Positions 3,298 through 45,408 of a stretch of DNA of 64,000 bases are shown here, one piece after another. Source of the DNA: Planctomycetota bacterium (GTDB lineage: Bacteria; Planctomycetota; B15-G4); NCBI GenBank assembly GCA_029245865.1, contig JAQWOM010000048.1, positions 1 to 64,000 of the forward strand, given 5' to 3'. The translations under genes and the position numbers were made by a program. The notes under the pieces are model-generated. The model saw only the letters and a list, made by a program, of their open reading frames with translations, had not been told where the DNA came from and did not search any database. Position 1 is the stretch's first letter. Each line of letters begins with the position of its first letter.

Positions 3298-4131
3298 TCA
3301 GCCAGGCCCGAACGTGAAGACGATCGCCAGGGCGATGGCAAAGATCACGACCGAGAAGACTCCCATGGCGAAGATCCGCCCGCGGTTCGGTTTGCCGCTG
3401 TCGTCGTGTTTCATGCCAGCCATTGCTTCGCCGCCCTCGCCAGATGCCGCCGGCATTTTCATCGCGCCCATGGAATGAGCGTTGGCCCGCACGGTCATCA
3501 TGCCGTGCTTGAGATGCCGTGTGACGAGCCACCAGTTCATCGGGTAGGCACAGAGGAAACCGACCATGAGAGAGAGCGACATGATGAACCAGAAGGCAGG
3601 GTTGAACGGACTGCTCGCTCCTGCAACGGAAGGTATCCAGAACTTGGAGACCAGGAGCATTCCCGCCATCAGGATGTTCATGGAATAGAACTCCGGGATG
3701 AAGGTCATCTTGAGCGACTTCCCGTAGTCGCCGCCCGCCATGTCGCGCATGGCGTATGCCTGGAAAAATGTCCAGCCGAACCCGAAGCCCAGAACGTATT
3801 CAAGAGCGATGTCGAGTGCCGGCTCGAGTTGCAAAAGACTTCCGATTGCAGCGCCGGCGATGATGCCCAGGCCGTCACCCGCAGCACAGTGCATGGTCGA
3901 GCCAAGCACCTGTCGCCAGGTTGCAGACACGTATTGCTCGTGCGTGCCCGGAAGCGGTTCCCTGCATCCCAGTACGTAGAAGAATGCACCGAAGGGACCG
4001 GTGAAGAGGGTCAGGATGACGAAGCCCCACTTCAGAACGACCGCTTCAGGTGTCGTGCGGATGTCAATGGCCACGAAAAGGACCGACATCCCGGTCAGGA
4101 TGAACCAGAGCAGCATCACGCCATCAAGCAT
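3298..4131 (-). CDS. DUF4396 domain multi-pass membrane protein
   Basis: A 277-residue inner-membrane protein with about seven to eight hydrophobic helices. Features typical of DUF4396 are a conserved STMHCAAGDGLG segment, a PMNWWLVTRHLKHGMM segment, and a His/Met-rich loop before the last helix (HSMGAMKMPAASGEG and MAGMKHDD). The Met/His enrichment suggests metal contact, perhaps copper, but this is inference. Function of the family is not established. It is convergent with the DUF3187 gene (74 bases apart) and divergent from the subtilase gene. Confidence 0.7.
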   Translation of the reverse strand: MLDGVMLLWFILTGMSVLFVAIDIRTTPEAVVLKWGFVILTLFTGPFGAFFYVLGCREPLPGTHEQYVSATWRQVLGSTMHCAAGDGLGIIAGAAIGSLLQLEPALDIALEYVLGFGFGWTFFQAYAMRDMAGGDYGKSLKMTFIPEFYSMNILMAGMLLVSKFWIPSVAGASSPFNPAFWFIMSLSLMVGFLCAYPMNWWLVTRHLKHGMMTVRANAHSMGAMKMPAASGEGGEAMAGMKHDDSGKPNRGRIFAMGVFSVVIFAIALAIVFTFGPG

Positions 4132-7851: not shown

Positions 7852-9456
7852 TCAGTTCGATGTTCCTGCGCGGCGCTTGATCACTGCCAGAAACTGTTCG
7901 GCCAGTGCTTCATAGATCGAAGTCGGGCAGACGCGCTGGGAACACTCGTAAGCAAGGATTGAAGTCGCCATCAAGGGCAGCGTGACAAAGCGAGCATCTG
8001 TCATTTCAAGCATGATCACGAAGACTGTGATGGGGCTTTGTACGACGCCAGCAAAGTAGGCCACCATGAAAAGCATCACGATGAGCTGCGCATCAAGGCC
8101 ATCGAACCACCGGCTGAACGTGTCGGCGAATGTGTTCCCCAAGCCCGCACCCACGGAAAGGCTGGGGTCAAAAAGACCGCCGGGAATGCCGCTGATGAGC
8201 GTGACGAATGAAGCGCCTGCCTTGGTGACTGGATACCACCACGAGTAGCCTTCTTGTTCGAGATGCCAGGTGTCGTAGAAGGCACGCTCGTTGGGATCGA
8301 TGAGGACTCGGTAAGCGGTTTCAATCTCCATCTGAGAGTCGTCGAGTTTTCCATGCAGACCGAGCAGTGGCTGTACGGTGGATTTTTGTTCATAGGCCTG
8401 GGTGATGGCTGAGTCAGGGGCATCACGTGAAACGCCAAGCTGTTGGTAGTAGTCGGTGCCGCGGTACATCAGGATGGCTTTTGCCTGGGGATAACCGCTG
8501 CCGTAAGACTGGCCTTGAGAGGCGTATCCCATGAGGGCGAGAAGGACACCAAGCAAAAGCCCTGTTCTCCAGGGTCGGCGCGCGCAGGCGCGAGTGATGC
8601 GTGGCGTTCCCCATATGACGCAGCGCGAAAAGAGTCCACCCAAGACGCCGCCGATCACGGCAATGACAGGCACTGCGCACCAGTGCATGAGTCCAAAGCC
8701 GTAGTGTTTGTTGATGCTCCCGTAAAAGAGGTAGTCCCAGCCGAGGAGTGAGATCACGACCAGCGAGGCCACGGTTACAGTGCGTACGATGGTTCCTGCA
8801 TTGTTCTTTTCGAAGGAACGACCGATTTCTTCGAAGGCGAACACCATGCCAGCAATCGGCGCGTTGAAGGCTGCCGCGATTCCAGCGCCGCCACCGCCCA
8901 GAATCAAACCGCGTTGCACAAGATGGTCGGGCAGCTTACGGACCTTGGACACCAAGTACATGGCGCAGGCGCCTACATGTACCGAGGGCCCTTCACGACC
9001 AATCGTTGGGCCGAAGAACAAGCCCATGGCCAGCAGCAGCGATTTGCCGACTGCAATGCGCATCGACAGCATGTTCTTGCGGATGGGGCCATCTTCAACA
9101 TGCAGCGCGGCTATGGCCTGGGGAATCCCCGTACCTTCAGTTCCGGGAAAAAACTTGTCGCGTAGCCGCATGATCAACGGCATGGCAAGTGCAACCGTGC
9201 CCATGGCGATGAAGATGCCGATGGCCGGGTCGACGCTCCATCCGTTGAACGTGTCCTCGCCTTGCAAGAAACGGAAGAACGCAAGGCCGGAGAAGTCGAG
9301 CCAACGAAACAGCCACGCGGCAAGGCCGGCGACCACGGCGGCGCCGATCAGCCATGCATAGTCCAGCCACGCCACCGGCGACCAAGCGCTTCGAGAGAAG
9401 CGCTCTGCCGTCGAGCATGACTCGGATTCGTTTTGTTCTGGATCGAGATCGGACAC
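7852..9456 (-). CDS. ClC-family chloride channel/antiporter with an inserted J-like domain
   Basis: 534 residues. ClC signatures are clear: GTGIPQA (108-114), GREGPSVHVG (153-162, with the gating glutamate at 155), GIAAAFNAPIAGMVFAFEE (192-210) and SGIPGGLFDPSLSVG (422-436). The retained gating Glu fits a Cl-/H+ exchanger rather than an open channel. Residues 335-397 (bases 8266-8454) read like a DnaJ domain: DYYQQLGVSRDAP, then ITQAYEQ, then ETAYRVLIDPNERAFYDTW. Most ClC proteins have only a short linker there. The HPD tripeptide that activates Hsp70 is absent (LHGKLDD stands in its place). The C-terminus has no CBS pair. Confidence 0.9.
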   Translation of the reverse strand: MSDLDPEQNESESCSTAERFSRSAWSPVAWLDYAWLIGAAVVAGLAAWLFRWLDFSGLAFFRFLQGEDTFNGWSVDPAIGIFIAMGTVALAMPLIMRLRDKFFPGTEGTGIPQAIAALHVEDGPIRKNMLSMRIAVGKSLLLAMGLFFGPTIGREGPSVHVGACAMYLVSKVRKLPDHLVQRGLILGGGGAGIAAAFNAPIAGMVFAFEEIGRSFEKNNAGTIVRTVTVASLVVISLLGWDYLFYGSINKHYGFGLMHWCAVPVIAVIGGVLGGLFSRCVIWGTPRITRACARRPWRTGLLLGVLLALMGYASQGQSYGSGYPQAKAILMYRGTDYYQQLGVSRDAPDSAITQAYEQKSTVQPLLGLHGKLDDSQMEIETAYRVLIDPNERAFYDTWHLEQEGYSWWYPVTKAGASFVTLISGIPGGLFDPSLSVGAGLGNTFADTFSRWFDGLDAQLIVMLFMVAYFAGVVQSPITVFVIMLEMTDARFVTLPLMATSILAYECSQRVCPTSIYEALAEQFLAVIKRRAGTSN

Positions 9457-10655: not shown

Positions 10656-12971
10656 TTAGGGCAGCCAGCGCGCCAGTGCTTCAGCAAAGGTGGACGGCTT
10701 GACAGGCTTGGGGAGGTAGTCGTCCATTCCTGCGAGCAGGCATTTTTCGCGGTCGCCTTCCATGGTGTTTGCAGTCATGGCGATGATAGGCACGCGTGAG
10801 GCGTCGCCAGTGAGTTGTCGAATCGAAGCTGTGGCGAGATAGCCATCCATGACGGGCATCTGGCAGTCCATGAAGACCAGGTCATAGGTTTTGCCGGAGT
10901 GCGCGAGCATCTCGACTGCTTGTTGGCCATTTCGAGCGATGTCGACGTGGTGGCCGAACTCAGTCAAAAGAGCGTGTACCAGCCGTTGGTTCACGAGATT
11001 GTCTTCCACAAGCAGTAGTTGAGCTGCTTTTTGTTTGGGAGCGCTTGAGAGCGGGTGTGATCCATTCGAGGGCATACCCTCTTTCTGTTGTGTCGGATGC
11101 GCGCCGCCCCTCGATTTTTCAAGGAGTGCAAGATGCAACACCTCGCGCAGCCGCTCTCGTCGAAACGGTTTGCTGATGAAGCCCTCGATGCTCACGGGCG
11201 GATCGCTTGGCATCTGCTGGCCAATCTTCGTGACTGCAATGATCGCCAGATGGCCTGTTGGATCTGCTTGCCTGAGGTTGGCCAGAGCCTCCCATGAACC
11301 TTCTTTTTCAAGCTCGAGTTCTGTGAGCACAACCTCTATCTCATGGCCGTGATCTGCCATTTCGGAGAAGGTCGCGAGCATGTCTGCGTTGGATTTGACC
11401 GCGGTGACATCGAGGCCTAGTCGCTGGAGCATCTCGGTCGCCACGAGTCGCAAATGAGACGCCTGAATGTTGAGCAAAAGCCGTTTGCCTCGCGGCAATC
11501 CCTGTGGCGCGACTTGGCCATGGGCTTGGGGAGATTGTTCAAGCGGAACCGCGAACCTGAAGACACTTCCGACTCCGACCTGGCTTTCACATGTCAGTTC
11601 GCCATCCATCAGAGTGGCGAGTGACTTGCTGATGGCCAAGCCAAGTCCTGTGCCACCGTAGCGGCGAGTTGTCGATCCGTCTGCTTGACTAAATGCCGTG
11701 AACATTTCCGGGAGGCGTTTGGGGTCGATTCCGACTCCGGTGTCACTCACTTCGGTTTGCACAGTGATTCGATTGTCCGATTCATCTACCACTCGCGTTC
11801 GGATCGAGACTTCCCCGGTTTCCGTAAATTTCGCGGCATTGTCGACCAGGTTCATGATGACCTGTCGAATGCGAAGAGGGTCTCCCTGGAGTTGCTCGGG
11901 CACGTCGCTGCCGACATCCGTGATGATTTCCAGGCCTCTGTCTTGAGCTTCCCTGCCTACCAGTTGGGCGATTTCTTCGACAGTCGTTCTGAAGTTGAAG
12001 GTCTCGACATTCAGCGACAACTTCTCGGCCTCTACCTTTGAGAAGTCGAGGATGTCATTGACCAATGCGAGGAGCAGATCCGCCGACTTCTTGACCGTGA
12101 CGACCATCTCTGTTTGGCCGCGATCGAGCTGAGTACGCATGAGTAGATTGGAAAAACCAATGATGCCATTCATCGGCGTCCTGATTTCGTGGCTCATGGT
12201 GGCGAGAAATTCGCTTTTCAGTTTGTCGAGCTTTTTGAGGTCTACGTTCTGATTTTGAACCTCCTGATAAGACTCTCGGAGGTTTTGACGCATGGTGTCT
12301 ATCGTTTGGGCGAGGGCTCCAAACTCGTCGACCGCTTCAAGCTGAATCGGGGCCTGCAGGTCGCCTCGGCCACATCGCTCGACCTGTAGAGTGAGATTTT
12401 TGAGTCGCTTGCCAACCAATGCCCCAAAGATCCAGATGAGCACGAGGCCAAGGCTGACAAAAGTAGCTAGCCATTGAAGGAACAACCGATTCCGGCTGGC
12501 TTCAACCACTTCTTGTGCGTGGGCGGTCGAGAGTCCGATGACGACTGTTCCCAGAAAAGGCATTGAGTCGTCAGAGTTGCTCGCGAGACCTTCTTCAGGC
12601 GGCAAGGAAATCTGCGCCTGATAATCAACGACAAGCTGGTCGGAGCCGATGGTGTGCCCCGATTCAACGAGCAACTTTCCATCCGCGCGAAGTACACGTA
12701 CGTAGGTGACGTGTTCTTCGTCCTGGATTAACGCTTGTGCAAACGATTCTAGCTCTGGGTAATCCAGGCTGACCAAGGGCTCTGCGCAGTAGATGGCAGC
12801 TGCAGTGACGAGCATGCGTCCCTGCAGGTCAATTTCTTCGAGCAGCGCTTCCTTCTGAACTTCGATGCTGTAGCGCCCTGTCACCAGGCCTGCAATGAGC
12901 AAGACCAAGGCGGTCGCAACGACAACCTTGGCTGTGATAGACCTGCGAATCTTCAAGAGAAGTTTCGCCAT
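10656..12971 (-). CDS. Hybrid sensor histidine kinase with two receiver domains
   Basis: 771 residues. Two membrane helices (about 15-32 and 165-190) flank a periplasmic sensor region. A HAMP-like linker follows, then a HisKA domain (MSHEIRTPMNGIIGF with the phospho-His) and an HATPase (N box NLVDNAAKF, G1 DTGVGID, G2 GGTGLGLAIS). The first receiver-like domain lacks the phospho-acceptor Asp (VVLTELELE replaces the usual LLD motif), so it is a pseudo-receiver. The last is a canonical receiver (LVFMDCQMPVMDG). It resembles BarA-type hybrid kinases. Eleven bases separate it from the upstream PhnD-like binding-protein gene, which probably delivers the ligand signal. Output may pass to an unlinked HPt protein, since none is present. 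Confidence 0.9.
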   Translation of the reverse strand: MAKLLLKIRRSITAKVVVATALVLLIAGLVTGRYSIEVQKEALLEEIDLQGRMLVTAAAIYCAEPLVSLDYPELESFAQALIQDEEHVTYVRVLRADGKLLVESGHTIGSDQLVVDYQAQISLPPEEGLASNSDDSMPFLGTVVIGLSTAHAQEVVEASRNRLFLQWLATFVSLGLVLIWIFGALVGKRLKNLTLQVERCGRGDLQAPIQLEAVDEFGALAQTIDTMRQNLRESYQEVQNQNVDLKKLDKLKSEFLATMSHEIRTPMNGIIGFSNLLMRTQLDRGQTEMVVTVKKSADLLLALVNDILDFSKVEAEKLSLNVETFNFRTTVEEIAQLVGREAQDRGLEIITDVGSDVPEQLQGDPLRIRQVIMNLVDNAAKFTETGEVSIRTRVVDESDNRITVQTEVSDTGVGIDPKRLPEMFTAFSQADGSTTRRYGGTGLGLAISKSLATLMDGELTCESQVGVGSVFRFAVPLEQSPQAHGQVAPQGLPRGKRLLLNIQASHLRLVATEMLQRLGLDVTAVKSNADMLATFSEMADHGHEIEVVLTELELEKEGSWEALANLRQADPTGHLAIIAVTKIGQQMPSDPPVSIEGFISKPFRRERLREVLHLALLEKSRGGAHPTQQKEGMPSNGSHPLSSAPKQKAAQLLLVEDNLVNQRLVHALLTEFGHHVDIARNGQQAVEMLAHSGKTYDLVFMDCQMPVMDGYLATASIRQLTGDASRVPIIAMTANTMEGDREKCLLAGMDDYLPKPVKPSTFAEALARWLP

Positions 12972-12982
12972 GCTGAGTCCCG

Positions 12983-13966
12983 CTAGATTTTTGCGGGTTG
13001 CTTGTCCCGCGACGAATTGTCCCCCCCCGGGGGCGACTTTTGTGGTACGGGCGGGGTGGTTGGAATCGCATCAAAGTCTATCGCAGTGCGCATGCTTTCC
13101 CGCGTTGATTTGTAATGCTCATCCGACGCTTCATAGAAGCCGCTCACTTTGAGTGAGGTAAGACTCGCTTCATCCGTTATCGAAACCAGAGCCCCGGAAA
13201 GACTTTCTTGAAGTTCTTTTGGGAGACCAGCTCGGGCGACCCATGGCTTGGTGACATTCAAGAAGCTCGCTAGCACACGTAACTGCTCATTCTTGTTGAG
13301 TTTCTTGAACGTGTTGCTTTTGAGTGAGCCCGCATCAAAGTCACCCATCTCAACTGCCTTGAAGACTTTGTCATGTCTCCCCAGAAACGCATGGTGCGAC
13401 AAATCGGTTGCTGTGATCCCAGCGGACAGAAGCTGTTCTTGGGCCAGGTAGCGCCCGATGGTTGAATTCTTGTCCCCAAAGGCAAAGGACCTGCCTCGTA
13501 AGTCGGCGAGGGTCTTCGCAGGGCTTTCTGTGGGCACGACGATCATGCCTTTGAACTGCGTCTCGCCATCCTTGTGCTCCATGGCGAGTAGAGCCACGTC
13601 TGGATTTCGATCCTTGGCGAGGACATAGGATGCAGGGCCGAATCTCACGAAATCGATTTCGCCCTCCACGAGGGCATCCAGGGCTTCGTCGTAGGACTTG
13701 TAGATTCTCAGGACAATGTCGGTTCGTTGTTGCAGCCGGGCACTCAGGTCCTCCTGTAGGACCTCGAGGATTGGATAGAAGGTCCGGTACATTTCTGTTG
13801 CTCGGTCGGTCGTGTAGACCCCGAACTCCAGTTCAATGATCGATTCTTGTGCAGCACTTGGCCCTGCCAAGAGGCTGGCAGCAAGAATGCTGGCGATGCA
13901 ACTTGCACTCCACATACGCATTACGGAGGGGGCTCTTGGCGTTTTGCCTCTTTCGTCATAATTCAT
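12983..13966 (-). CDS. PhnD-like periplasmic substrate-binding protein, probable sensor partner
   Basis: 327 residues with a signal peptide (SCIASILAASLLAGPSAAQ, cleavage after AQ). The body matches phosphate/phosphite/phosphonate-type binding proteins: GVYTTDRATEMYRTFYPILEV, then EGEIDFVRFGPASYVLA, then DLRGRSFAFGDKNSTIGRYL. No ABC permease or ATPase gene is nearby. The gene lies immediately upstream of the hybrid histidine kinase, with an 11-base gap on the same strand. Stand-alone PhnD-like proteins next to kinases commonly act as ligand-binding sensor subunits, so I infer a two-protein sensor. The ligand (phosphonate, phosphite or another anion) cannot be told from sequence. The C-terminal tail is proline-rich. 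Confidence 0.85.
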   Translation of the reverse strand: MNYDERGKTPRAPSVMRMWSASCIASILAASLLAGPSAAQESIIELEFGVYTTDRATEMYRTFYPILEVLQEDLSARLQQRTDIVLRIYKSYDEALDALVEGEIDFVRFGPASYVLAKDRNPDVALLAMEHKDGETQFKGMIVVPTESPAKTLADLRGRSFAFGDKNSTIGRYLAQEQLLSAGITATDLSHHAFLGRHDKVFKAVEMGDFDAGSLKSNTFKKLNKNEQLRVLASFLNVTKPWVARAGLPKELQESLSGALVSITDEASLTSLKVSGFYEASDEHYKSTRESMRTAIDFDAIPTTPPVPQKSPPGGDNSSRDKQPAKI

Positions 13967-31301: not shown

Positions 31302-32030
31302 ATGCAACCATCCAGTGTCCGGGCCCTCGTGACGGGGTCTAGTCGCGGTATCGGAGCAGCTATCGCGCGCCGCCTTGCCTCCGCTGGGCATCCGGTGATT
31401 GTGAATTACCGCACTGGCGAACAGGCGGCCGCCGAGGTTGTTGCCTCGATCCAAGAACAGGGTGGTGAAGCCCAAAGCACTTGTTTCGATGTCGCCGACC
31501 GGGAGCAAACCACTGCCGCTCTCAATGATTTGCTCGAGGATTCACGTCCTATCGGGATTCTGGTCAACAACGCAGGCGTTGCTCGTGATGCCGCTTTTCC
31601 CGCCATGCAGGGTGAAGATTGGGATGCTGTGCAAGCCACGACACTCAATGGATTCTTCAACGTCACCCGGCCGCTCGTCATGCAGATGGTGACTCAACGC
31701 TGGGGACGTATCGTGAACCTCTCGTCGATTTCAGCGTTGCGGGGGAATCGCGGCCAGGTGAATTACGCAGCTGCCAAAGCTGGAATCCTTGGTGCAACAA
31801 GGGCTCTCTCAATGGAACTGGCCAAGCGAAAGATCACGGTCAATGCCGTAGCACCAGGGCTAATCGATACGGACATGATCACAGGAGTTCCAGATTTCGT
31901 GACAAATCAGATTCCCATGAAGCGTGTTGGGAGGCCGGATGAAGTTGCCGCGCTGGTGGGCTTTCTGGCTTCAGAGGATGCGAGCTACATCACTGGGCAA
32001 ACGATTGGAATCGATGGTGGCTTTGGATGA
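31302..32030 (+). CDS. 3-oxoacyl-ACP reductase (FabG/ApeQ-like)
   Basis: 242 residues of classical SDR: NADPH motif TGSSRGIGAAIARRL, NNAG (ILVNNAGVARD), catalytic Ser in NLSSISALRG, and Tyr/Lys in QVNYAAAKAGILG. The ending DDASYITGQTIGIDGG-like tail (here EDASYITGQTIGIDGGFG) is FabG-type. It reduces the keto group after each extension. The stop overlaps the next start by four bases (ATGA). Together with the ketosynthases and hotdog dehydratases downstream it fits the ApeQ role in aryl polyene assembly. Confidence 0.9.
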   Translation: MQPSSVRALVTGSSRGIGAAIARRLASAGHPVIVNYRTGEQAAAEVVASIQEQGGEAQSTCFDVADREQTTAALNDLLEDSRPIGILVNNAGVARDAAFPAMQGEDWDAVQATTLNGFFNVTRPLVMQMVTQRWGRIVNLSSISALRGNRGQVNYAAAKAGILGATRALSMELAKRKITVNAVAPGLIDTDMITGVPDFVTNQIPMKRVGRPDEVAALVGFLASEDASYITGQTIGIDGGFG

Positions 32031-33226
32031 CGGGCGTTGCTTCCTTTGATGTGATCGTGGCTGGAGCGGGGCCGGGCGGCAGCACGGCTGCAGCGTTGCT
32101 GGCTGAGAAGGGCCACCGTGTCTTGGTCCTGGAGAAGTCAGAGTTTCCACGGTTTCATATCGGGGAGTCACTGCTGCCAGGGTGTATGCCGATTCTCGAT
32201 CGATTGAATATCGAAATCACTCCAGATGTTTTCGTGCACAAGGCCGGCGCTGAATTCGTTTGTGAAGAAAGCGGCCGCACGCAATGTTTCGATTTCTCTG
32301 AGGCACTGCCAGGTTGCGCTGAATCTGCATGGCATGTCGATAGAGCTCTCTTTGATTTGACACTGCGCAATAAGGCTCGAAGTTCAGGAGCGGAAGTGCG
32401 TCATGGCGTGCGTGTTGCGGGTGTCGATTGGAAAGACGATCGGGTTGTCGTTGACAGTAGCGGCGGAGTTTTCACAGCACGATTTTTCATCGATGCAACG
32501 GGCCAAGACCGGCTGCTGGGCCGGCAGCAGGGATCCTGCGAGCCATGCCCAGACTTTGGTCATGTGGCGATTTTTACCCATTTCGAAGGGCTGGGCGAGG
32601 AGGCCCTGCGGGAGATCGGAGACGAAGGGCGGATCCGAATCATGCTGCGTGACGAGGGTTGGGGGTGGTTGATCCCGTTGCCTGGAAGGCGCCTTAGCGT
32701 CGGTCTCGTTTGCCGAGGCAAGGTGCAACCCGAAACACTTGACGAAGGTTTGCTCTCCGGCCCCCTTTGTCGCAGGTGGACGAAAGGTGCGACTCGCCTG
32801 GGAACCCACGTGGCCCGGAACTTCAGCTATCAGAACAACGCGCCTCATGGTCCGAGGTACGCGGCGATCGGGGATGCCGCGGGCTTTCTCGACCCTGTTT
32901 TTTCGTCGGGAGTGACGTTGGCGATGCGTGGCGCCGAACAACTGGCCGACGCTTTAGGTCCGGCTTTGGATGCTGGCCTCGAAGCCCGTTTGAGCTTGCA
33001 CGCCGAATATCGTCCGCCGATGGACAGGGCGTTGCGGAGCTTCTCTGCTCTACTCGACCGTTTCTATCACACACGTTTTGCCGATACGGTGTTGCTGGGG
33101 CCTTCCACCGACAACACAATGCGTCACGGAGTTATGAGCGTGTTGGCCGGAGATGTTTGGCGTGATGACAATCCTTTCCAGGAGCTCCTCCTGAAGGCTC
33201 GGCCGAGGGCCAGCCGACACCGCTAG
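32027..33226 (+). CDS. FAD-dependent halogenase-like oxidoreductase (first of two)
   Basis: 399 residues. The FAD-binding motif is VAGAGPGGSTAA (11-22), followed by FHIGESLLPG (43-52), a segment seen in flavin-dependent halogenases. The halogenase signature WxWxIP occurs as WGWLIP (212-217), and FIDATGQ precedes it. These features place it in the tryptophan-halogenase-like flavoprotein group, which also contains non-halogenating oxidases, so chlorination or bromination is possible but unproven. It overlaps the ketoreductase by four bases and is followed by a ketosynthase after 8 bases, so it belongs to the pigment operon. Confidence 0.8.
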   Translation: MTGVASFDVIVAGAGPGGSTAAALLAEKGHRVLVLEKSEFPRFHIGESLLPGCMPILDRLNIEITPDVFVHKAGAEFVCEESGRTQCFDFSEALPGCAESAWHVDRALFDLTLRNKARSSGAEVRHGVRVAGVDWKDDRVVVDSSGGVFTARFFIDATGQDRLLGRQQGSCEPCPDFGHVAIFTHFEGLGEEALREIGDEGRIRIMLRDEGWGWLIPLPGRRLSVGLVCRGKVQPETLDEGLLSGPLCRRWTKGATRLGTHVARNFSYQNNAPHGPRYAAIGDAAGFLDPVFSSGVTLAMRGAEQLADALGPALDAGLEARLSLHAEYRPPMDRALRSFSALLDRFYHTRFADTVLLGPSTDNTMRHGVMSVLAGDVWRDDNPFQELLLKARPRASRHR

Positions 33227-33234
33227 GATCTATC

Positions 33235-34413
33235 ATGCCTGCTCCGCGAGTTCGTCCGCTATGCGTCACTGATTACGCCAACCTGAATGCCTTGGGCGGT
33301 TCGCGGTCTGAAATCCTAGCCGCGCTGGCCGCTGGTCGAAGTGGATTGGGTTCTCCCACGGAATCATTTGGCTTCACGACGGCGGTCGGTGAAGTGCGTA
33401 CGGAACTCCCCGATTTGGAGGGAGAGTTGAGTGCCTGGTCGACGCGCATTGCCAGGATGGCTGGAGTGCTTGTCGCTGAGCTTGAAGAGCCCTTGCGGCG
33501 GGCTCGCAAGCGCTGGCGTCCCGAGCGCATCGCCGTGCTGATGGGCTCGAGTACAGGAGGCGCATCGGCCACTGAAGTCGCTTATCGTCACTATGTCGAG
33601 CAGGGTGCGTTGCCAGCCGACTACAGTTTCCAAAGGCACCACACTTTTAACGCTCTCTTGAATGTCGTGGGCGAGTTGTCCGGCGCCAAAGGTCCCGCGT
33701 GGATGATTTCGACGGCGTGTACATCGAGCGCGAAACCTCTTGCTACAGCACAGCGGTTGATGGCAGCCGACATCATTGATGCGGCTATCGTGGGCGGTGT
33801 GGACACGTTGTGCGCTTTGACATTACTGGGCTTTCAGTCATTGCAAGCGCTTGACCGTCAGCCTTGCCGGCCCTTTAGTTCTGAGCGAAGCGGCATAAGT
33901 ATTGGAGAGGGCGGGGCATTGGCTCTGGTTGAACGGTCAGGTGAGCCGCGCGTGCTTGTCGAAGGTGTTGGTGAAACGTCTGACGCGTATCACATCAGTG
34001 CGCCCCATCCAGAGGGGCGGGGTGCGTTGGGTGCAATGCAGGTAGCCATGAGCCAGGCTGGTTGCAGCAGCAAGGACATCGACCACATCAATGCTCACGG
34101 AACGGGTACCCATCTCAATGATGCGACTGAGGGCATCGCCATCGCAAAATTGTTTGCTGATCAGGTGCCAGTTGTTTCGACGAAGGGGTACACCGGCCAC
34201 ACGCTGGGGGCAGCGGGCGCAATTGAGTTCGCTTTTGCTAGCTACGCCATTGAAGAAGGTTGGATCCCGCCTTCGTTGAATTGCGAGCCGCTTGACGAGA
34301 GCGCTGGGATCTTTATTTCGAAGACCCTTCTGAAGGGTGACTTCAAGCGAGTGCTCAGCAATTCATTCGCATTCGGTGGCAACAACGTGAGCGTGTTGGT
34401 GAGAGCCCCATGA
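33235..34413 (+). CDS. Beta-ketoacyl-ACP synthase (ApeO-like)
   Basis: 392 residues with the complete KAS Cys-His-His triad: Cys162 in MISTACTSSAK, His288 in NAHGTGTH and His322 in GYTGHTLGAAG. GISIGEGGA and FAFGGNN complete the thiolase fold. In aryl polyene systems one active KS pairs with a KS-like chain-length partner. The next gene, overlapping by four bases, is that kind of partner. I therefore assign it as the elongating synthase of an ApeO/ApeC-like pair. Confidence 0.9.
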   Translation: MPAPRVRPLCVTDYANLNALGGSRSEILAALAAGRSGLGSPTESFGFTTAVGEVRTELPDLEGELSAWSTRIARMAGVLVAELEEPLRRARKRWRPERIAVLMGSSTGGASATEVAYRHYVEQGALPADYSFQRHHTFNALLNVVGELSGAKGPAWMISTACTSSAKPLATAQRLMAADIIDAAIVGGVDTLCALTLLGFQSLQALDRQPCRPFSSERSGISIGEGGALALVERSGEPRVLVEGVGETSDAYHISAPHPEGRGALGAMQVAMSQAGCSSKDIDHINAHGTGTHLNDATEGIAIAKLFADQVPVVSTKGYTGHTLGAAGAIEFAFASYAIEEGWIPPSLNCEPLDESAGIFISKTLLKGDFKRVLSNSFAFGGNNVSVLVRAP

Positions 34414-35195
34414 CGGGATTCGAAGTGGGGATCGGAGGTGTGGGGCTCTGGATGCCCGGATATTCGGGCGTGGAGAGTTGGTTAGCGGGTGTCCCCGACC
34501 CTGAACACGCACAGCCGAGTGGAAGGGCGTTCGACCGGATGAATCGTCGCCGGGCGAGTCAACTCGGGCGCGCGCTTTCAGACGCTCTTGCTGAGAGCGG
34601 AGTGCAGGCAGGTGTGGATGCTTCGACAACGCCCACTGTGGTCGGGTCTGCGATTGGCGAGGGCTGCACCATGGTGGGTTTGTTAGAGCAGATCTTTAGT
34701 GCGGAGGATCCTGTTTCGCCGGCGGCTTTCTCGGTCAGCGTTCACAACGCCGCTGCGGGCCTCATTTCCATTTCGAATAAAAACGAGGGGTTTGCCTCAG
34801 CGCTATCAGCAGATAGCGACACGCCTGCTGCCTCGCTGATTGAAGGAATCGGGTTGGTCGCCACGACAGGCGCGCCTGTAGGCGTGGTGTGTGGTGACGA
34901 GCCGGTTCCGATTCACTTGCTTTCGGAAGGCCAGCGTTGGTCCTTACAGGCTGCTGCCGTCACCTTGGTGCCTCTCGAATCCAACACGAAGTGTTTGGCC
35001 CGATTGCGCGTGGTGTTAGATGGAGCACCGGATCTCGTACCAGCCGAACTCGATCTGCCCGGCTCTCGTAATCCTCAGGCCGGAATGGTCGATCTGGTCG
35101 CGGCTGTGGCTCGCGGACAGACGGGATGTGTGCGTTTGGATCGTGGGACTGGCAGAGGGTACTGCGCGGTGGTCACGTCGGCGCCCATTTCATGA
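34410..35195 (+). CDS. Ketosynthase N-terminal-domain-like protein (ApeC-like chain-length partner)
   Basis: 261 residues, about two thirds of a normal KS. It matches the short ketoacyl-synt_2 type: it opens with VGIGGVGLWMPGYSG, carries a SVSVHNAAAGLISI segment and lacks the active-site Cys and both His. Such proteins pair with an active KS as a chain-length factor. It overlaps the KS gene by four bases and the dehydratase gene by four bases, fitting obligate co-expression. It is short by family design, not truncated. Confidence 0.75.
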   Translation: MTGFEVGIGGVGLWMPGYSGVESWLAGVPDPEHAQPSGRAFDRMNRRRASQLGRALSDALAESGVQAGVDASTTPTVVGSAIGEGCTMVGLLEQIFSAEDPVSPAAFSVSVHNAAAGLISISNKNEGFASALSADSDTPAASLIEGIGLVATTGAPVGVVCGDEPVPIHLLSEGQRWSLQAAAVTLVPLESNTKCLARLRVVLDGAPDLVPAELDLPGSRNPQAGMVDLVAAVARGQTGCVRLDRGTGRGYCAVVTSAPIS

Positions 35196-35632
35196 GCACT
35201 TACCCTGCTGTTGCCGATTTAGTGCCCCATGAACCGCCAATGTTGGCTCTTGAAGAGGTGGTTTTTGCTGAGCGAGGTCGAGCGACGTCGCGTGTGGTTC
35301 TGCGCGAGGGGATGCAGTTTGTTGTTGATGGCCATCTCGAGACTGTCGTGACACTTGAGTACATGGCGCAGACAGTTGCAGCCTGCTTACGGCTTGAAGC
35401 GCTCAGCCTTCGCGACGAATCGCCGGTGCGGATGGGGATGATCGTGGCTTGCCGCTCTATGGCGATTCACCGGCCCGAGTTGCAGGTCGGAGAAGTCTTG
35501 AGTTGTGAGGTCAAGCGAGTCAGTGGTACAGATGACGCCAGCTTTTTTGAGGGATGGACTCGTGATGCGAGCAACGCAGTTGTGTCTGAAGTGTCCATGA
35601 CACTTGTGCACGCTGCGATCTCACGAGACTGA
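35192..35632 (+). CDS. Hotdog-fold dehydratase (ApeP-like)
   Basis: 146 residues from MSTYPAVADLVPHEPPMLALEEVV; the ATG at 35192 overlaps the preceding TGA. The PHEPPMLALEEV segment is typical of ApeP/FabZ-like 3-hydroxyacyl-ACP dehydratases. TLEYMAQTVAACLRLEAL follows, with a conserved E-x2-AQ pattern. It should dehydrate the 3-hydroxyacyl-ACP intermediate to introduce each conjugated double bond, working with the second dehydratase at 40229. A possible longer start at 35126 overlaps the upstream gene and lacks support. Confidence 0.8.
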   Translation: MSTYPAVADLVPHEPPMLALEEVVFAERGRATSRVVLREGMQFVVDGHLETVVTLEYMAQTVAACLRLEALSLRDESPVRMGMIVACRSMAIHRPELQVGEVLSCEVKRVSGTDDASFFEGWTRDASNAVVSEVSMTLVHAAISRD

Positions 35633-35636
35633 CTCG

Positions 35637-36665
35637 TTAGTCTGGTGTTTCGCTTTTTGGGCGGCCAACCAGAAGCCAGCTAGATTGAGTCACTGCGAGC
35701 GTGCGTTCGAGCTTGAGGCCGGCTCGGTTGAATAGCTGTCGCATGGCGCGCTTGCTTCGTTCTCGCCCGCCCGTGATCACCATCATCTCGATGTCGAAAT
35801 GGCGTCCGTTGTGGGAGAGGTGCCCGGGCAAGAGAAGATTCTCGAGCACGAACACATAGCCATTCGAGACCGCGGCCTGGGCACAGCGTGTCAGTAGCTC
35901 AGTTGCGTGTTGATCGTCCCAGTTGTGAAGCACGTGAGACAGCAGGTAGGCATCTGCGCCCTGGGGAATCGACTTGTGGAAGTCGCCGGCGATGAGATCC
36001 ATTCGGTCGGCGATTTCGTCCGGGATTTGCTTGGCGGTGCGAGCCAGAACTTCAGGGAGGTCGACCAGGATTCCGCTCAGCGCCTGCCACCGCTTGAGCA
36101 GAGCGCTCAGGATGGTGCCGCGGCCTCCCCCCAGATCGACGAGCCGACTCACTCCAGAAAGATCGAGGGTCTCGGTGAGAGCTGCGGCCTGATGGCGTGT
36201 GAAGGATTCGATCGCGTTGTCGAATCGGATGGCGGCGGGAGCATTTTCTGACAGATAGGAATACAGATCGCGACCATGCGTCTCGCTGAAGGCGTCTTTG
36301 GCGCCGAGGCGCAGGCTGTCGGCCAGGCGGGCCCAGGGATCCCATTGCTCAGGAGATCCGAGATAACTGGCAAGTGGGCCGAGTGCCTCAGAAGAAAGCT
36401 TCTGCCCGAGGCGGGTCACGTTGAAGGTGTCAGTGATCTCGTCACGAGTGCAAATGTCCAAACTCACCAGGTAGAGCAACAGCCTCTCAAGGCGATCGGC
36501 ATCGCAGTTCAGTTGATCTGCAAGTTCGGCACAAGAAAGAGGGCCAGCGGCAAGAGCGTCGGCAACTCCGAGTTGTGCTGCGGCGGACACGGCCTGAGTC
36601 CGGCATCGCCCGGTCAAGATCTCGTAAAGACGGGCGACATCATCGTCTGGAACTTGCTCGTTCAC
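35637..36665 (-). CDS. SAM-dependent O-methyltransferase (acetylserotonin-OMT-like)
   Basis: 342 residues. The N-terminal 100 residues form the winged-helix dimerisation domain typical of this family (QLGVADALAAGPLSCAELAD). The SAM motif is LVDLGGGRGTIL (175-186), and the catalytic base motif HVLHNWDD is at 244-251 with His247. The C-terminal MRQLFNRAGLKLERTL is also typical. It probably methylates a phenolic hydroxyl of the aryl head group. It is on the opposite strand to the cluster core and overlaps the second halogenase-like gene by four bases, so those two form a divergent operon. Confidence 0.88.
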   Translation of the reverse strand: MNEQVPDDDVARLYEILTGRCRTQAVSAAAQLGVADALAAGPLSCAELADQLNCDADRLERLLLYLVSLDICTRDEITDTFNVTRLGQKLSSEALGPLASYLGSPEQWDPWARLADSLRLGAKDAFSETHGRDLYSYLSENAPAAIRFDNAIESFTRHQAAALTETLDLSGVSRLVDLGGGRGTILSALLKRWQALSGILVDLPEVLARTAKQIPDEIADRMDLIAGDFHKSIPQGADAYLLSHVLHNWDDQHATELLTRCAQAAVSNGYVFVLENLLLPGHLSHNGRHFDIEMMVITGGRERSKRAMRQLFNRAGLKLERTLAVTQSSWLLVGRPKSETPD

Positions 36666-38410
36666 GCAACTGTGCCCTGGGAGAGCAACTCACGGCAGTG
36701 GGCGGCCTCGGAATGCCGTCGTTGTCGGCCGAGGTTGCGTTCAATGTCTTTTGCGATAGGTGAAAGATGGCGGCGTCGCGTCAAGCTGTCCATGCTTTCG
36801 AGTTCGAGCCTCTCGGGCGGAATCTCGAGCCCGGAGTTCTTGAACTTGGATTGCTCTAGAATTTTTTGAGCCGTCTCGTAGCTGACGGATTGAACGATCC
36901 GCACGACAAGCTCGACGGCTATTTCACGGCCTTGTTCAGCTCTCTTTTGAATGTAGGCAACAGTTTCGCCGGGCTCCATCTTCTGTCCTGTGGCGATGTG
37001 GGCCTCGATGAGCACGGACGGAAAGTTTGGAAGTCCAACCATGACCGGGTGTGAAACAGACGGCTCTAGATCTGCCCAGGACCTGAAGAGTTCTTGCATG
37101 GCACGGGAGCATTCGCCAAAGAGTCGTGCCGCTTCGTCGATCTGGTCGCGGTCCTGTTCCTCCATTTGCCAGATGTTTTGCTTCAGGTACTGACACGTAT
37201 ACGACCAGTACACGAAGTTGTCCCAGTAGATCTTGGCCGACATGGCCTGGACGTGTCCGTAGACCGGCGACGCCATGCGAAAAATGTCAGTTGTCGAGGA
37301 CACGAGGATGCGGTACTGAGCATTGAGCCTCTGTGCAAGTGCTCCGCAGTCACCGCCATTTTGCTCCACGCGAATCATCTCAGTGGCAAAGCAGTTTGCA
37401 AAACCGATGAAATCAGTTCCGGGGCTGTAAAGCGGGTCAACGAAGGCTCCGGCCTCACCAACGATCGCCCATCGATTCTCGGAGAAGGAGCGCGTGATTC
37501 CATTGTTGTACTTTCGCAAGCAAAGGAAGTCTTCGGCTGGATGAGCCTCAAGGGCCTTCGCCAAGTGCGGCTCGTGCTCGGCAAGGAAGTCTCTGACGTT
37601 GTCCAGCGAGCGGACATTCTCGAAATCGTGTTCATCTTCGTGAATGACGAGCCCGATGCTGGTGTGTCCGGTTGAGAGAGGGATGACCCACGCCCAATAG
37701 CCCCTGCCCATGAAGTGGTTTGTAGAACGCCAGCGCTCTTTGGCGCAGGGCCGGTTATGCCAGCCCTCTTCGCTTTGCGGCACCATGCTGTTGATGTCGA
37801 AACGGCCGGCGATTCGAAACCAGCCTGCGCTGGCTGGATGACGCGTTCCGCGCTTTAGCTTGAGGTCGCTCCGTATCAAGCCGGCTCGACCACTGGCATC
37901 AACGACCCAGTGCGTTGCGATGTTCTTTGTCTCTCCATCCTGTTCATAGGAGATGACGTGGTCCGCATCATCGCTGCTGAGTTGAATGTCATGCACGCGA
38001 GCGCCTTCGATGAGTGTCGTGCCGTCTTCTTCGACGAAACCGCGCAGATCGTTTTCGAAACGGCCACGGTCGATCTGATAGCTGCGCACGATAGGCTCGC
38101 CACTCGGGCCAATCTCGGTTCGTTTATGCAGCGGGAGTTCGCCATGGCCAGGAAAGAAACGGAGCCCCAGCTTCTGTAGATGCTGGTCGAGCAGGTAATC
38201 CTTCAGACCGAGCATCTCCAGGTACTGGCTGCCTGCCTCAACGCTGGACTCGCCCACTTTGTGACAAGCCTCGGGAAGTGGGCGGGTCGATTTTTCTAGA
38301 ACAGCGACAGACAGTTGGGGGAGTTCTAGATGCAATTGGCGAGCGAGGAGGAGGCCGGCCAGCCCCCCGCCGCAAATGACAACATCCCAGGAGTCAGTGA
38401 GTTGTCTCAT
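36662..38410 (-). CDS. FAD-dependent halogenase-like protein (second of two)
   Basis: 582 residues from MRQLTDSWDVVICGGG; the frame extends to 38446, but that would abut the divergent gene. Features are the FAD motif VVICGGGLAGLLLARQL (10-26), KVGESSVEAG (51-60) and the halogenase WxWxIP signature as WAWVIP (239-244). GEAGAFVDPLYSPGTDFI in the middle is typical of tryptophan-halogenase-like proteins. About 130 extra C-terminal residues are unassigned. Flavin halogenases chlorinate or brominate aromatic rings, as in the brominated xanthomonadins. With the O-methyltransferase it could tailor the aryl end. Activity is inferred. Confidence 0.8.
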   Translation of the reverse strand: MRQLTDSWDVVICGGGLAGLLLARQLHLELPQLSVAVLEKSTRPLPEACHKVGESSVEAGSQYLEMLGLKDYLLDQHLQKLGLRFFPGHGELPLHKRTEIGPSGEPIVRSYQIDRGRFENDLRGFVEEDGTTLIEGARVHDIQLSSDDADHVISYEQDGETKNIATHWVVDASGRAGLIRSDLKLKRGTRHPASAGWFRIAGRFDINSMVPQSEEGWHNRPCAKERWRSTNHFMGRGYWAWVIPLSTGHTSIGLVIHEDEHDFENVRSLDNVRDFLAEHEPHLAKALEAHPAEDFLCLRKYNNGITRSFSENRWAIVGEAGAFVDPLYSPGTDFIGFANCFATEMIRVEQNGGDCGALAQRLNAQYRILVSSTTDIFRMASPVYGHVQAMSAKIYWDNFVYWSYTCQYLKQNIWQMEEQDRDQIDEAARLFGECSRAMQELFRSWADLEPSVSHPVMVGLPNFPSVLIEAHIATGQKMEPGETVAYIQKRAEQGREIAVELVVRIVQSVSYETAQKILEQSKFKNSGLEIPPERLELESMDSLTRRRHLSPIAKDIERNLGRQRRHSEAAHCRELLSQGTVA

Positions 38411-38502
38411 CTTTCGGGTGGCTCTCGTGATTGCGCGTTTGCTCAAAGTTGGCTGGAAGTTCGGCTAAGGCAAGCCAACTGCTGGATGCGTATCATGTGC
38501 GA

Positions 38503-39333
38503 GTGAGCACAGCAACCCACCGCGCCAATGACGATATCCTACGTCTTGTTCGCAAGGGGTGTGTCGTCTTCACGGTCGGGGTCTACATCCTGCTGGTGCC
38601 GTTTAGCTGCTTGATCTTTGCTGCGCTCTATCTGATCTGGCGTCCAACCCCCTTGGCCCGCCTCAGGCGCACTCAGGCGCTGGTGTCTTTGGGCTACAGG
38701 ACGATGCACCGTTGGCTGAATCTGGTTCGGCTCACCCGTTGGGATATGTCTCGCCCTCTGGAGAAGGTGCCGGAGGGCGCTTTCGTTGTGATTGCAAACC
38801 ATCCCACTTTGATGGATGTGACCGCGATCATGGGCCTCCTGGGGGGGGCTTGCACTGTTTCCAAGCCGGGCCTCCACAAGCGTTTTGTTCTGCGCCCGAT
38901 TTTGCGCGGATCGGGGGTCATTGCAGGGGCGGGAGGTGACCCCTCTGCAGCGGCGCGTGTCCTTGATGAGGCTGTCGCACTCATCGAGCAGGGATTCCCG
39001 ATGCTTATTTTCCCTGAAGGCACCCGGTCGCCCAGGGGCGAGCTTTTGCCCTTTGGGCGCGCAGCCTTTGAAATGGCATGCCGAGCGCGGGTGCCCGTGT
39101 TGTCGCTGGCGATCACATGCGAGCCAGCCTGGCTTTCCAAAGAGCAACCGCTTTTCGACCCTCCTCATCAGACGCCCCACCTACAGCTTGTGACGCTCGC
39201 AATCGACGATCCTGCACGAGTAGACTACGACAGTCGGCAATTGTGCCGGCTCATTGAAGGTCGATATCAACAATGGTTTCGCGGACTGCAACCCGAAATT
39301 TCTGCAGTTGAGCCGGAGATGCACAACAGATGA
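38503..39333 (+). CDS. 1-acyl-glycerol-3-phosphate-type acyltransferase (PlsC-like)
   Basis: About 276 residues from a GTG at 38503; GTG 38497 and an upstream start at 38431 are alternatives, the last overlapping the divergent gene. Two N-terminal helices (GCVVFTVGVYILLVPFSCLIFAALYLI region) anchor it. The acyltransferase blocks are NHPTLMDVTAI (motif NHx4D) and FPEGTRSPRGE (motif EGTR). Aryl polyene clusters usually include such an acyltransferase for lipid attachment of the chain. It overlaps the ACP gene by four bases. Confidence 0.85.
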   Translation: MSTATHRANDDILRLVRKGCVVFTVGVYILLVPFSCLIFAALYLIWRPTPLARLRRTQALVSLGYRTMHRWLNLVRLTRWDMSRPLEKVPEGAFVVIANHPTLMDVTAIMGLLGGACTVSKPGLHKRFVLRPILRGSGVIAGAGGDPSAAARVLDEAVALIEQGFPMLIFPEGTRSPRGELLPFGRAAFEMACRARVPVLSLAITCEPAWLSKEQPLFDPPHQTPHLQLVTLAIDDPARVDYDSRQLCRLIEGRYQQWFRGLQPEISAVEPEMHNR

Positions 39334-39611
39334 CGGACACCCTGGAAGACGATTTGAAGGTCATGATCGTCGAGACCCTCGCCTTGGAAGACGTTGATCC
39401 CAAGAGTATTGAAACCGATGCGCCGCTGTTCGGCGAAGGTCTCGGGCTCGACTCGATCGACGCGCTCGAACTCGCGCTTGCCATTCACAGCAAGTTTGGT
39501 GTGCGAACCAAGGAGAACGACGAACGGAATCGTGAGTACTACCATTCAGTCAAGTCACTGGCGGCCTTTATCCGCGAGGAGCAAGCGAAGGCGCCAGCGT
39601 CTGGAGCGTGA
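39330..39611 (+). CDS. Acyl carrier protein
   Basis: 93 residues. The phosphopantetheine attachment site is Ser42 in GLGLDSIDALELAL. The acidic helix and small size match ACPs used in aryl polyene assembly. It carries the growing chain between the ketosynthase, ketoreductase and dehydratases. Only one ACP gene is seen, whereas characterised clusters often have two. The start overlaps the acyltransferase stop. Confidence 0.9.
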   Translation: MTDTLEDDLKVMIVETLALEDVDPKSIETDAPLFGEGLGLDSIDALELALAIHSKFGVRTKENDERNREYYHSVKSLAAFIREEQAKAPASGA

Positions 39612-39614
39612 CCT

Positions 39615-40232
39615 TTGGTGATCACCACGCGGCGCATGTGGATTCGGGCGCTGGCGGGGATGGTGTTCGTCGCCTACCCAGCTCTCGTGTGGTTTGGTCT
39701 GTCGCGCTGGAGTCCCCGACTCCTCGCGCTGGCTATGCTTGCAGTTTTCGTGCCGATGGCGCTCTACCGGCTGCGTGGCGTACCCCGTGAACAGCTAAGA
39801 AGCCTGGCACTCCTTCCACTCGTGACAGTGATTGCGTTGCTCTTGGCGGCGCTGCTCGATTCCGGCGGCTATGTGCTCCTGGTACCTGTGGTCGTGAATG
39901 TCGCCTTGTTGTTCGGTTTCGGAAGCACGTTGCGCCGAGGTTCGATACCCATGATCGAACGTTTCGCCCGACTCCAGTCAGCAGAGCTTGGAACGAGCGA
40001 AAAAGACTGGTGCCGACTGTGGACTCGGATCTGGTGCGCATTTTTTATCTTTAACGGTGGGACGACCCTTGTGCTCGCGCTGACGTCACCTGTCTCATGG
40101 TGGGCGTTGTACACGGGACTGCTGGCTTACGTTTTGATCGGTGCCTTGCTCGGTCTCGAGTGGCTCATGCGTCGGCGGCGCTTCGGTGTGACCTCGACCA
40201 AGGCTTCTGAGCCTTGCGAGGGCGAGCCGTGA
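39615..40232 (+). CDS. COG4648-type membrane protein of aryl polyene clusters
   Basis: 205 residues with about six hydrophobic helices. It contains CAFFIFNGGTTL and WALYTGLLAYVLIGALLGLEW, typical of the uncharacterised membrane protein usually found next to the ACP in aryl polyene clusters. Function is unknown; a role in lipid-linked transfer or export is only suggested by its place. The start is TTG 39615 or GTG 39618. The stop overlaps the next GTG start (GTGA). Confidence 0.75.
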   Translation: MVITTRRMWIRALAGMVFVAYPALVWFGLSRWSPRLLALAMLAVFVPMALYRLRGVPREQLRSLALLPLVTVIALLLAALLDSGGYVLLVPVVVNVALLFGFGSTLRRGSIPMIERFARLQSAELGTSEKDWCRLWTRIWCAFFIFNGGTTLVLALTSPVSWWALYTGLLAYVLIGALLGLEWLMRRRRFGVTSTKASEPCEGEP

Positions 40233-40627
40233 CTGATTTGTCGTCAGGCGGAAAGAGCGCGGATCTTGAATGGGTTGATGACGAACCGTCCAGTCAGAGT
40301 CAGCAGACTCAATGTATGTGCCGGACGACGATCCCCGTTGACTACATGTATTTTGACGGTCACTTTCGAGGCTATCCAGTCCTCGCTGGCGTTGTTCAAC
40401 TACACGAACTCGTTTTGCCGTGCGTGCGTCGTTTGCGACCCGACTTGCCCTCGCTGTCAAAACTTTCAGGCCTCAAGTTCCGTTCTCGAATATTGCCTGG
40501 CGATGCTGTGGATATTCTGTTGCGTTGGAATGAACTCGGACCAGTTGTTCAATTCGAGATCTTCTCCAATGGTCAACCGTGCACGCAGGGAAGGCTTCAG
40601 TTTGATGCCGCTCAGGTGGGATTATGA
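40229..40627 (+). CDS. Hotdog-fold dehydratase (ApeI/FabA-like)
   Basis: 132 residues starting at a GTG (40229) that overlaps the preceding TGA. The catalytic stretch FDGHFRGYPVLAGVVQLHE holds the FabA/FabZ-type His and the GYPVLAG motif. It is the second hotdog dehydratase of the cluster, and the two may act on different chain lengths or as a pair. It overlaps the GT2 gene by four bases. Confidence 0.85.
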   Translation: MTDLSSGGKSADLEWVDDEPSSQSQQTQCMCRTTIPVDYMYFDGHFRGYPVLAGVVQLHELVLPCVRRLRPDLPSLSKLSGLKFRSRILPGDAVDILLRWNELGPVVQFEIFSNGQPCTQGRLQFDAAQVGL

Positions 40628-41382
40628 GGAGTGAGAAGGCGGGGCTTTATAGGGCCTGCGGATTGCTTCCGACGTACAACAACCCTCTCACGATTCGAAG
40701 AATGGTCGAAGAGGTGCGTCAGCACTTACCCGACATCATTCTTGTGGATGACGGCAGTAGCAATCCGGCGCAAGAGCTGTGCGCCGCATTGGCTTCCGAA
40801 GGACTTGTGACGCTGGTCAGGCTTGAGCGCAACCAAGGGAAGGGGGCGGCGGTTGTGGCCGGCTTGGCCCAGGCGCAGGCGCTGGGCTTCACGCACGCAT
40901 TTCAGATCGATGCCGACGGTCAGCATGATGTGACGGCCATGAGCGAGTTTCTCAAGGCGAGTCGGCAAAATCCTGATTGGCTTGTCCTGGGGCATCCGCT
41001 TTACCGGGGCGCACAGCCTCGATCGCGTCGGTGGGCCCGCCGATTGACCGGTTTTTGGGTCGGGGTTGAGCTGGGTGATCGTTCGCTTGTCACGGACGCG
41101 ATGATTGGTTTCAGGGTTTACCCCATTGTCTCGACACTCGCGGCTCGCCCGAAGAGCCGTCGCATGGACTTCGACATTGAGATCATTGTGCGCATGGTGC
41201 GCGCCGGCATCACTGTCGTGAATCTTCCTGTCGGAGTGACTTACCCCGACAAAGAGTCAGGGGGAATCAGTCACTTCAGGCCGGTGATGGACAATCTGAG
41301 TTTCTGCGGGATGCACACCCGGCTCTGTATGTCCGGAATCTTCGGTTGGGTGCAGCGATGTCTGACTGGGCGAGCAGCGTGA
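40624..41382 (+). CDS. Family 2 glycosyltransferase
   Basis: 252 residues. GT-A fold motifs are LLPTYNNPLTI, LVDDGSSNPA, ERNQGKGAAVVAG and the metal-binding DADGQHD. In enterobacterial aryl polyene clusters a GT2 and an acyltransferase are fused in one protein; here the acyltransferase is the next, separate gene, overlapping by 25 bases. It probably adds a sugar or sugar-phosphate to the polyene lipid. The ATG at 40624 overlaps the dehydratase stop. Confidence 0.85.
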   Translation: MRSEKAGLYRACGLLPTYNNPLTIRRMVEEVRQHLPDIILVDDGSSNPAQELCAALASEGLVTLVRLERNQGKGAAVVAGLAQAQALGFTHAFQIDADGQHDVTAMSEFLKASRQNPDWLVLGHPLYRGAQPRSRRWARRLTGFWVGVELGDRSLVTDAMIGFRVYPIVSTLAARPKSRRMDFDIEIIVRMVRAGITVVNLPVGVTYPDKESGGISHFRPVMDNLSFCGMHTRLCMSGIFGWVQRCLTGRAA

Positions 41383-42305
41383 GTCGATCGCCTGAAGCTG
41401 ACAACGGATCCGAGTCAGACTGGTTGAATCAGTCAGAGCGCGGGCAGTTGTGGTTGATTAAAATTTCTTTCCGGATGGCAGTTCTTGTTGGGCGGCGTTG
41501 TATGTCGCCACTCGTGTCACTCGTCGCACTTTGGTATCGCGTTGTAGATCGTTCTGCGGTGGCCAGTTCGCGGGATTGGCTCACGCGAATCCACGGTCGC
41601 CCCCCTGGCTTCTGGGAGATCTACCGGCACCTACGCACTTTTTCCCAGGCCACGCTCGACAAGGTCTTCTTCCTCACGGGGCGTACAGAGCAACTGGTTG
41701 TGACGAACTGCGGAGGTCACTTGCTAGAGGCTCAGATTGCGACTGGCCAGGGTGCGTTGCTGCTCGGTTCACACCTTGGCAGTTACGACGCGATGCGCAG
41801 TGTAGGAATGGAAATGGGTTTGCCGGTGCAGGTTGCCGGTTACTTCGAGAATGCCTCGATGATCAACTCTCTACTGAAGCAACTGAATCCGGGTCTGGCT
41901 GAGCAGGTGATTCATCTGGGGAATGATCCAGTGGGTGTCATGGCGCGCCTTCAAGGACACCTTCAAAAAGGAGGTCTTGTGGCCGTGGCCGGAGACAGGA
42001 TCGGTCTCAATGAGCGGGTGGTCATGGCCAATTTCATGGGAGAGTCCGCGCCGTTTGCGGGTGGACCTTTCCTTCTCGCTTCAATCATGCGTTGTCCTGT
42101 CTTTCTGGTGTGCGGCATCTACACAGGACCCAATCGCTATGATCTGATTTGCGAGCGTTTCGCCGATCGCATCGAGCTTCCCCGGCCGGATCGAGAGCGA
42201 GCCCTTGCAGTGTTTGTTCAGGCTTATGCGGATCGACTCGAAAGTCTGGCCCGCAAGGCGCCGAATAACTGGTTCAATTTTTTCGATTTCTGGAGTCGGC
42301 CTTGA
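41358..42305 (+). CDS. LpxL/HtrB-like lysophospholipid acyltransferase
   Basis: About 315 residues from MSDWASSVSRSPEAD (ATG 41358); a TTG at 41346 is in frame. GALLLGSHLGSYDAMRS carries the HxxxxD-type catalytic motif (HLGSYD), and VAVAGDRIG and GGPFLLASIMRCPVFLV follow as in LpxL. It is a probable membrane-associated acyltransferase attaching the polyene chain to a glycolipid. It reads as the separated C-terminal half of the usual GT2-acyltransferase fusion. The stop overlaps the LolA-like start (TTGA). Confidence 0.85.
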   Translation: MSDWASSVSRSPEADNGSESDWLNQSERGQLWLIKISFRMAVLVGRRCMSPLVSLVALWYRVVDRSAVASSRDWLTRIHGRPPGFWEIYRHLRTFSQATLDKVFFLTGRTEQLVVTNCGGHLLEAQIATGQGALLLGSHLGSYDAMRSVGMEMGLPVQVAGYFENASMINSLLKQLNPGLAEQVIHLGNDPVGVMARLQGHLQKGGLVAVAGDRIGLNERVVMANFMGESAPFAGGPFLLASIMRCPVFLVCGIYTGPNRYDLICERFADRIELPRPDRERALAVFVQAYADRLESLARKAPNNWFNFFDFWSRP

Positions 42306-45396: not shown

Positions 45397-45408
45397 GACT
45401 TCTGGATC

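Follow-up and report, generated by a model that had tools for sequence, protein, structure and literature searches.

A predicted J-type domain lacking the HPD motif within the L-M loop of ClC-type Cl-/H+ antiporters from planctomycetes

The solved bacterial ClC transporters are, to our knowledge, minimal proteins without a folded domain on their outer face. In enteric bacteria, ClC antiporters act as an electrical shunt for acid resistance (PMC10394335). Extracytoplasmic parts acting on ClC exchangers have been described as separate proteins: TMEM9 is a beta-subunit of ClC-3, ClC-4 and ClC-5 whose extracytoplasmic part acts on the exchanger (PMC11962092), and Ostm1 is described as a separate beta-subunit of ClC-7 with an extracytoplasmic part (PMC8833911). 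Both offer an analogy only, as the domain reported here is in-line with the transporter. The loop between helices L and M is extracellular or luminal in ClC-5, where a 163-residue insert leaves a working protein (PMC11962092).

The window analyzed here, a 64,000-nucleotide stretch of contig JAQWOM010000048.1 from a Planctomycetota bacterium whose genome holds three ClC genes, encodes a protein (Table 1) that matched the Pfam family Voltage_CLC over residues 99-506 (E 5.4e-74), with the ClC signatures GTGIP and GREGP before and GIPGGLFDP after a J-like insert. A template-free AlphaFold2 model built from an alignment of 22 proteins adopted a ClC fold (pLDDT 79, pTM 0.84), and its comparison with solved structures returned ClC exchangers at Z 42-43.5, led by the cyanobacterial 3nd0 (Z 43.5) and including E. 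coli ClcA/CLC-ec1 (Z about 42). The window protein shares with these two the fold, the gating glutamate, the proton glutamate and the pore tyrosine, the last three being invariant in 22/22 aligned ClC sequences (17 J carriers and 5 J-less), and its predicted fold and three key residues are those of a ClC Cl-/H+ antiporter. In comparison to ClcA/CLC-ec1-type antiporters it showed 22% identity and, unlike them, has a J-like domain in the L-M loop. Two positions were also seen to differ from ClcA in all 22 relatives, namely residue 109 (about 9130-9132), which is Thr where ClcA has S107, and residue 430 (about 8167-8169), an Asp within GGLFDPSL that corresponds to Ala in the GGIFAP of ClcA; the selectivity of this group may differ from that of ClcA. 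The reading of the J-carrying form (ClC-J) that we consider somewhat likelier to be right than wrong is that an antiporter serving in acid or envelope stress co-opted a J fold once, as a lid on its periplasmic side with a regulatory or docking role.

Table 1. Positions in the window of the ClC-J gene, its insert and its key residues
Feature	Position	Strand	Basis
Gene for the ClC-type Cl-/H+ antiporter, including its J-like insert	7852..9456	-	534-aa ORF
J-like domain, aa 335-395	8272..8454	-	Pfam DnaJ above cut-off; four predicted helices
Full insert as judged against the J-less relatives, roughly aa 336-403 with approximate ends	8248..8451	-	Alignment with L018, L021-L024
QPL instead of HPD, aa 362-364 (Q362-P363-L364)	8365..8373	-	Pairwise alignment with solved J domains
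E155, equivalent of ClcA gating glutamate E148 (GREGP)	8992..8994	-	Aligned to ClcA
E210, equivalent of ClcA proton glutamate E203	8827..8829	-	Aligned to ClcA
Y515, equivalent of ClcA Y445	7912..7914	-	Aligned to ClcA

The original prediction, a J-domain outline set inside a ClC transporter, proved real: residues 335-395 matched the full Pfam DnaJ model (positions 1-63) with E 5.5e-7 and a score of 30.0 bits, above the curated cut-off of 27.8, the strings cited in that prediction (DYYQQLGVSRDAP, ITQAYEQ and ETAYRVLIDPNERAFYDTW) were found at 8272-8454, inside the predicted interval of 8266-8454, and ClC signatures stood on both flanks. The 77-residue segment searched alone scored 36.7 bits against DnaJ (E 4.7e-9), the same Pfam family was matched by 17/17 family members, and a profile built from the 17 segments retrieved solved J domains at E 3.6e-15. 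Searches of NCBIfam and PDB sequences returned DnaJ-type proteins with the exception of one acyl-CoA dehydrogenase at E 0.22. Chance or artefact was ruled out by the profile scores and by 16 further genomes with the same insert, and a frameshift or fused neighbor gene by a frame that is open in every member and by J-less forms that align on both sides. The J core (D-Y/F-Y, A-Y, A..L, ER.FYD.W) is kept across the family. Identity to planctomycete DnaJ and CbpA-type J domains was 28-42%, with best matches that alternate between these two types and point to no single donor.

Within the full-length model, helices were placed in the insert at residues 336-340, 348-361, 373-386 and 388-399. The J segment modelled alone (pLDDT 76) gave a list of solved structures with J domains throughout its top (best Z 11.1), and the best 50 Foldseek rows were all J-domain proteins or complexes with one at probability 1.00, with E-values that are weak for so short a model (2.6e-3 at best). 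A four-helix J fold was thus obtained, and the contrary outcome, a structure prediction with no J fold, did not appear. Two single-residue bridge positions occurred in both models at the former HPD loop, where a small hairpin is possible. Profile matches and models together indicate that residues 335-395 are a true J-type domain whose fold has been kept.

Scanning of GTDB representative genomes yielded 21 relatives, and the anticipated search for other ClC proteins with this insertion found 16 homologues carrying it at the same point (17 carriers with the window protein). By their titles these 16 are MAGs of Phycisphaerales, Phycisphaerae or Planctomycetota, and the names of several point to ocean sampling. 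In the five J-less homologues (L018, L021-L024; 53-58% identity to the window protein), helix L runs straight on to a WHY motif before helix M. The view that this arrangement is no standard ClC form also held, as it did not turn out to be a known ClC loop, and no report of a ClC with a J domain was found in the literature searched. When the insert was cut out and a tree built from the remaining ClC sequence, the 17 carriers formed one clade (support 100/99), which, on sequence evidence, places a single gain of the J insertion in the ancestor of a Phycisphaerales-type planctomycete group. Among 392 genomes of the phylum searched, no J carriers were found besides the window's own; independent J-ClC fusions may exist elsewhere, because the genome scan picks up close relatives only.

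The nearest copy of the window ClC-J (L004, 73% identity) comes from a distant genome, with just 58% rpoB identity to the window genome, while five genomes from the same family as the window genome (rpoB 85-88% identical) had no close copy. This distribution suggests that the window copy was probably acquired horizontally as a single gene. Misbinning of the contig is also possible, since the affinities of its genes are mixed: those for a kinase and TauE agree with the family or order of the window genome, and a DUF4396 gene agrees with Phycisphaerales. The DUF4396 membrane protein (3298-4131) has homologues of about 40% identity in two Phycisphaerales genomes (G098 and G100) and in 0/5 own-family genomes, and its gene may have arrived together with the ClC gene. 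Elsewhere in the window, the region 31302-47974 resembles a biosynthetic cluster of the aryl-polyene type, as it encodes several ketoacyl synthases together with an MMPL protein, an ApeI/FabA-like dehydratase and an FAD halogenase-like protein, and a hybrid histidine kinase adjoining a phosphonate-type periplasmic binding protein (10656-13966) is a possible sensor pair. An Rfam search of the window gave zero matches.

Mean identity across carriers was 46% for the J part versus 74% for the ClC core, and pairwise dN/dS for the 14 closest pairs was 0.09-0.55 in the J part and 0.03-0.09 in the core. The direction of this difference is clear and the values are rough, with dS mostly saturated and the only unsaturated pair (L013/L014) giving a dN/dS of 0.37 from ten changes. 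With a conserved J core and dN/dS values under 1, the aligned sequences indicate a domain under purifying selection and not a decaying remnant, although the constraint may be on the fold only, since substitutions accumulate more quickly in the J part than in the core. The main rival to a lid or docking module is a passive insertion in which the tolerant L-M loop received a J domain and selection only keeps the fold harmless; the sequences are compatible with both. Passive insertion would fit both a J part far less conserved than the ClC core and a ClC-5 that stays functional with 163 residues inserted in the same loop (PMC11962092). It fits less well with a diverse clade whose 17 members have all retained the domain, with no loss seen, and overall we hold it to be rather unlikely. 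Also against it, 17/77 columns of the J-segment alignment are invariant, including R1, L33 and W66, which lie outside the usual J pattern.

In most carriers ClC-J adjoins genes of stress types, namely a stress sigma factor, small heat-shock proteins (Hsp20) and an HdeD-like gene of the acid-resistance type. A sigma-70 factor was found after the ClC-J gene on the same strand at 15/15 J loci with a readable flank, and is termed RpoS-like here on a best NCBIfam match to RpoS that falls below that model's cut-off. Two to four Hsp20 genes lay within about 3 kb at 14 of these 15 loci and an HdeD/DUF308-type gene nearby at 13. In one subclade (L007, L008, L010, L015, L019 and L020) the Hsp20 and HdeD-like genes, where present, precede ClC-J and share its strand, in the remaining carriers they are downstream on the opposite strand, and a lipA neighbor flips between subclades while the ClC-J-sigma pair is constant. 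Across L004-L020 the RpoS-like sigma, HdeD/DUF308-like and Hsp20 genes are thus rearranged yet together (for example L007:1-5651 and L005:2977-7371). None of the three neighbors was found at the 5 J-less loci, covering about 9 kb on each side in L018 and a few kb in the others, and the cluster is absent around the window copy. Based on these stress-gene neighbors and the acid-resistance role of enteric ClC antiporters, we infer, as a best guess, that ClC-J may serve in acid or envelope stress; the linkage is an association, and the J domain itself need not do stress work. A more specific proposal, which we advance only tentatively, is an in-line periplasmic sensor or lid that works without Hsp70 in a ClC that handles ion transport for a cluster dedicated to acid and heat stress, along with the RpoS-like sigma, the Hsp20s and the HdeD-like protein. 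The clustering with Hsp20 and HdeD-like genes and the acidic surface of the J segment (pI 4.1-4.9 in 16/17) could also suggest an extracytoplasmic ATP-independent holdase or assembly chaperone that aids ClC dimer folding or protects proteins of the periplasm from acid or heat, an improbable role given that a client-binding region beyond the J fold is absent and that isolated J domains are not generally known as holdases.

Mapped onto the ClC helices, as had been proposed, the insertion falls in the L-M loop, between a short helix L (322-331) and a helix M (408-422) that leads into GIPGGLFDP at helix N. Loop charges were +3.3 for J-K and +3.1 for F-G, both expected to be cytoplasmic by the general ClC topology from which we assigned the side of each loop, in comparison to slightly negative values for loops expected outside and -6.9 for the J domain. 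As the L-M loop is extracytoplasmic in ClC proteins and the charges agree, the J domain should be periplasmic and therefore out of reach of DnaK, which is cytoplasmic.

The absence of HPD noted in the original prediction was borne out by QPL in the window protein and by an intact HPD in 0/17 members, where the Asp position is Leu in 17/17, His is retained in 1/17 and Pro in 6/17. The basic Hsp70-docking face of helix II was looked for and was absent, with a net charge of 0 or below over this stretch in 15/17 members (-1 in the window protein). The label "degenerate" therefore stands for the Hsp70 motif only and not for the fold, which purifying selection has preserved in the 17 genomes. The ClC insert has the four-helix fold of DnaJ/CbpA-type J domains but differs from them in lacking HPD, in the Asp to Leu change of all members, in a helix II shorter by one residue, in its acidity and in its location in a membrane transporter, predicted to be outside the cytoplasm. 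HPD is intact in the other J-type proteins of the window genome, namely DnaJ and an HscB-like protein encoded next to an Hsp70-type gene. A J fold without a working HPD is also found in J-like proteins such as Pam16/Magmas, which is a separate protein pairing with a true J protein, whereas the ClC insert is part of a transporter loop. With HPD absent and, as a second reason, a domain expected in the periplasm, stimulation of Hsp70 is unlikely and DnaK an unlikely partner. A J domain still active, at least in part, in recruiting DnaK to the transporter, or one that binds Hsp20 or DnaK in the cytoplasm, would account for the J fold and the adjoining Hsp20 genes but is very improbable and was rejected as the main reading, as HPD is lost in 17/17, the basic helix II face is gone and the loop is extracytoplasmic while DnaK is not.

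The preferred reading, a periplasmic lid or docking module, would begin with a J domain inserted once between helices L and M of a ClC in a Phycisphaerales-type ancestor, with subsequent retention of the fold and loss of Hsp70 coupling. Two short linkers would hold the domain at the periplasmic face as a compact lid that may adjust the exchanger's activity in acid or envelope stress or recruit a periplasmic partner; both this regulation and the binding partner are what we infer for the domain. The original prediction had suggested a protein-interaction or gating domain, and either role may apply. The J-less homologues (53-58% identity) are ready natural controls. If the reading is true, ClC-J would represent a natural example of a ClC that contains its own extracytoplasmic regulatory domain, lineage-wide and acquired once, and a J fold that has left both Hsp70 and the cytoplasm.
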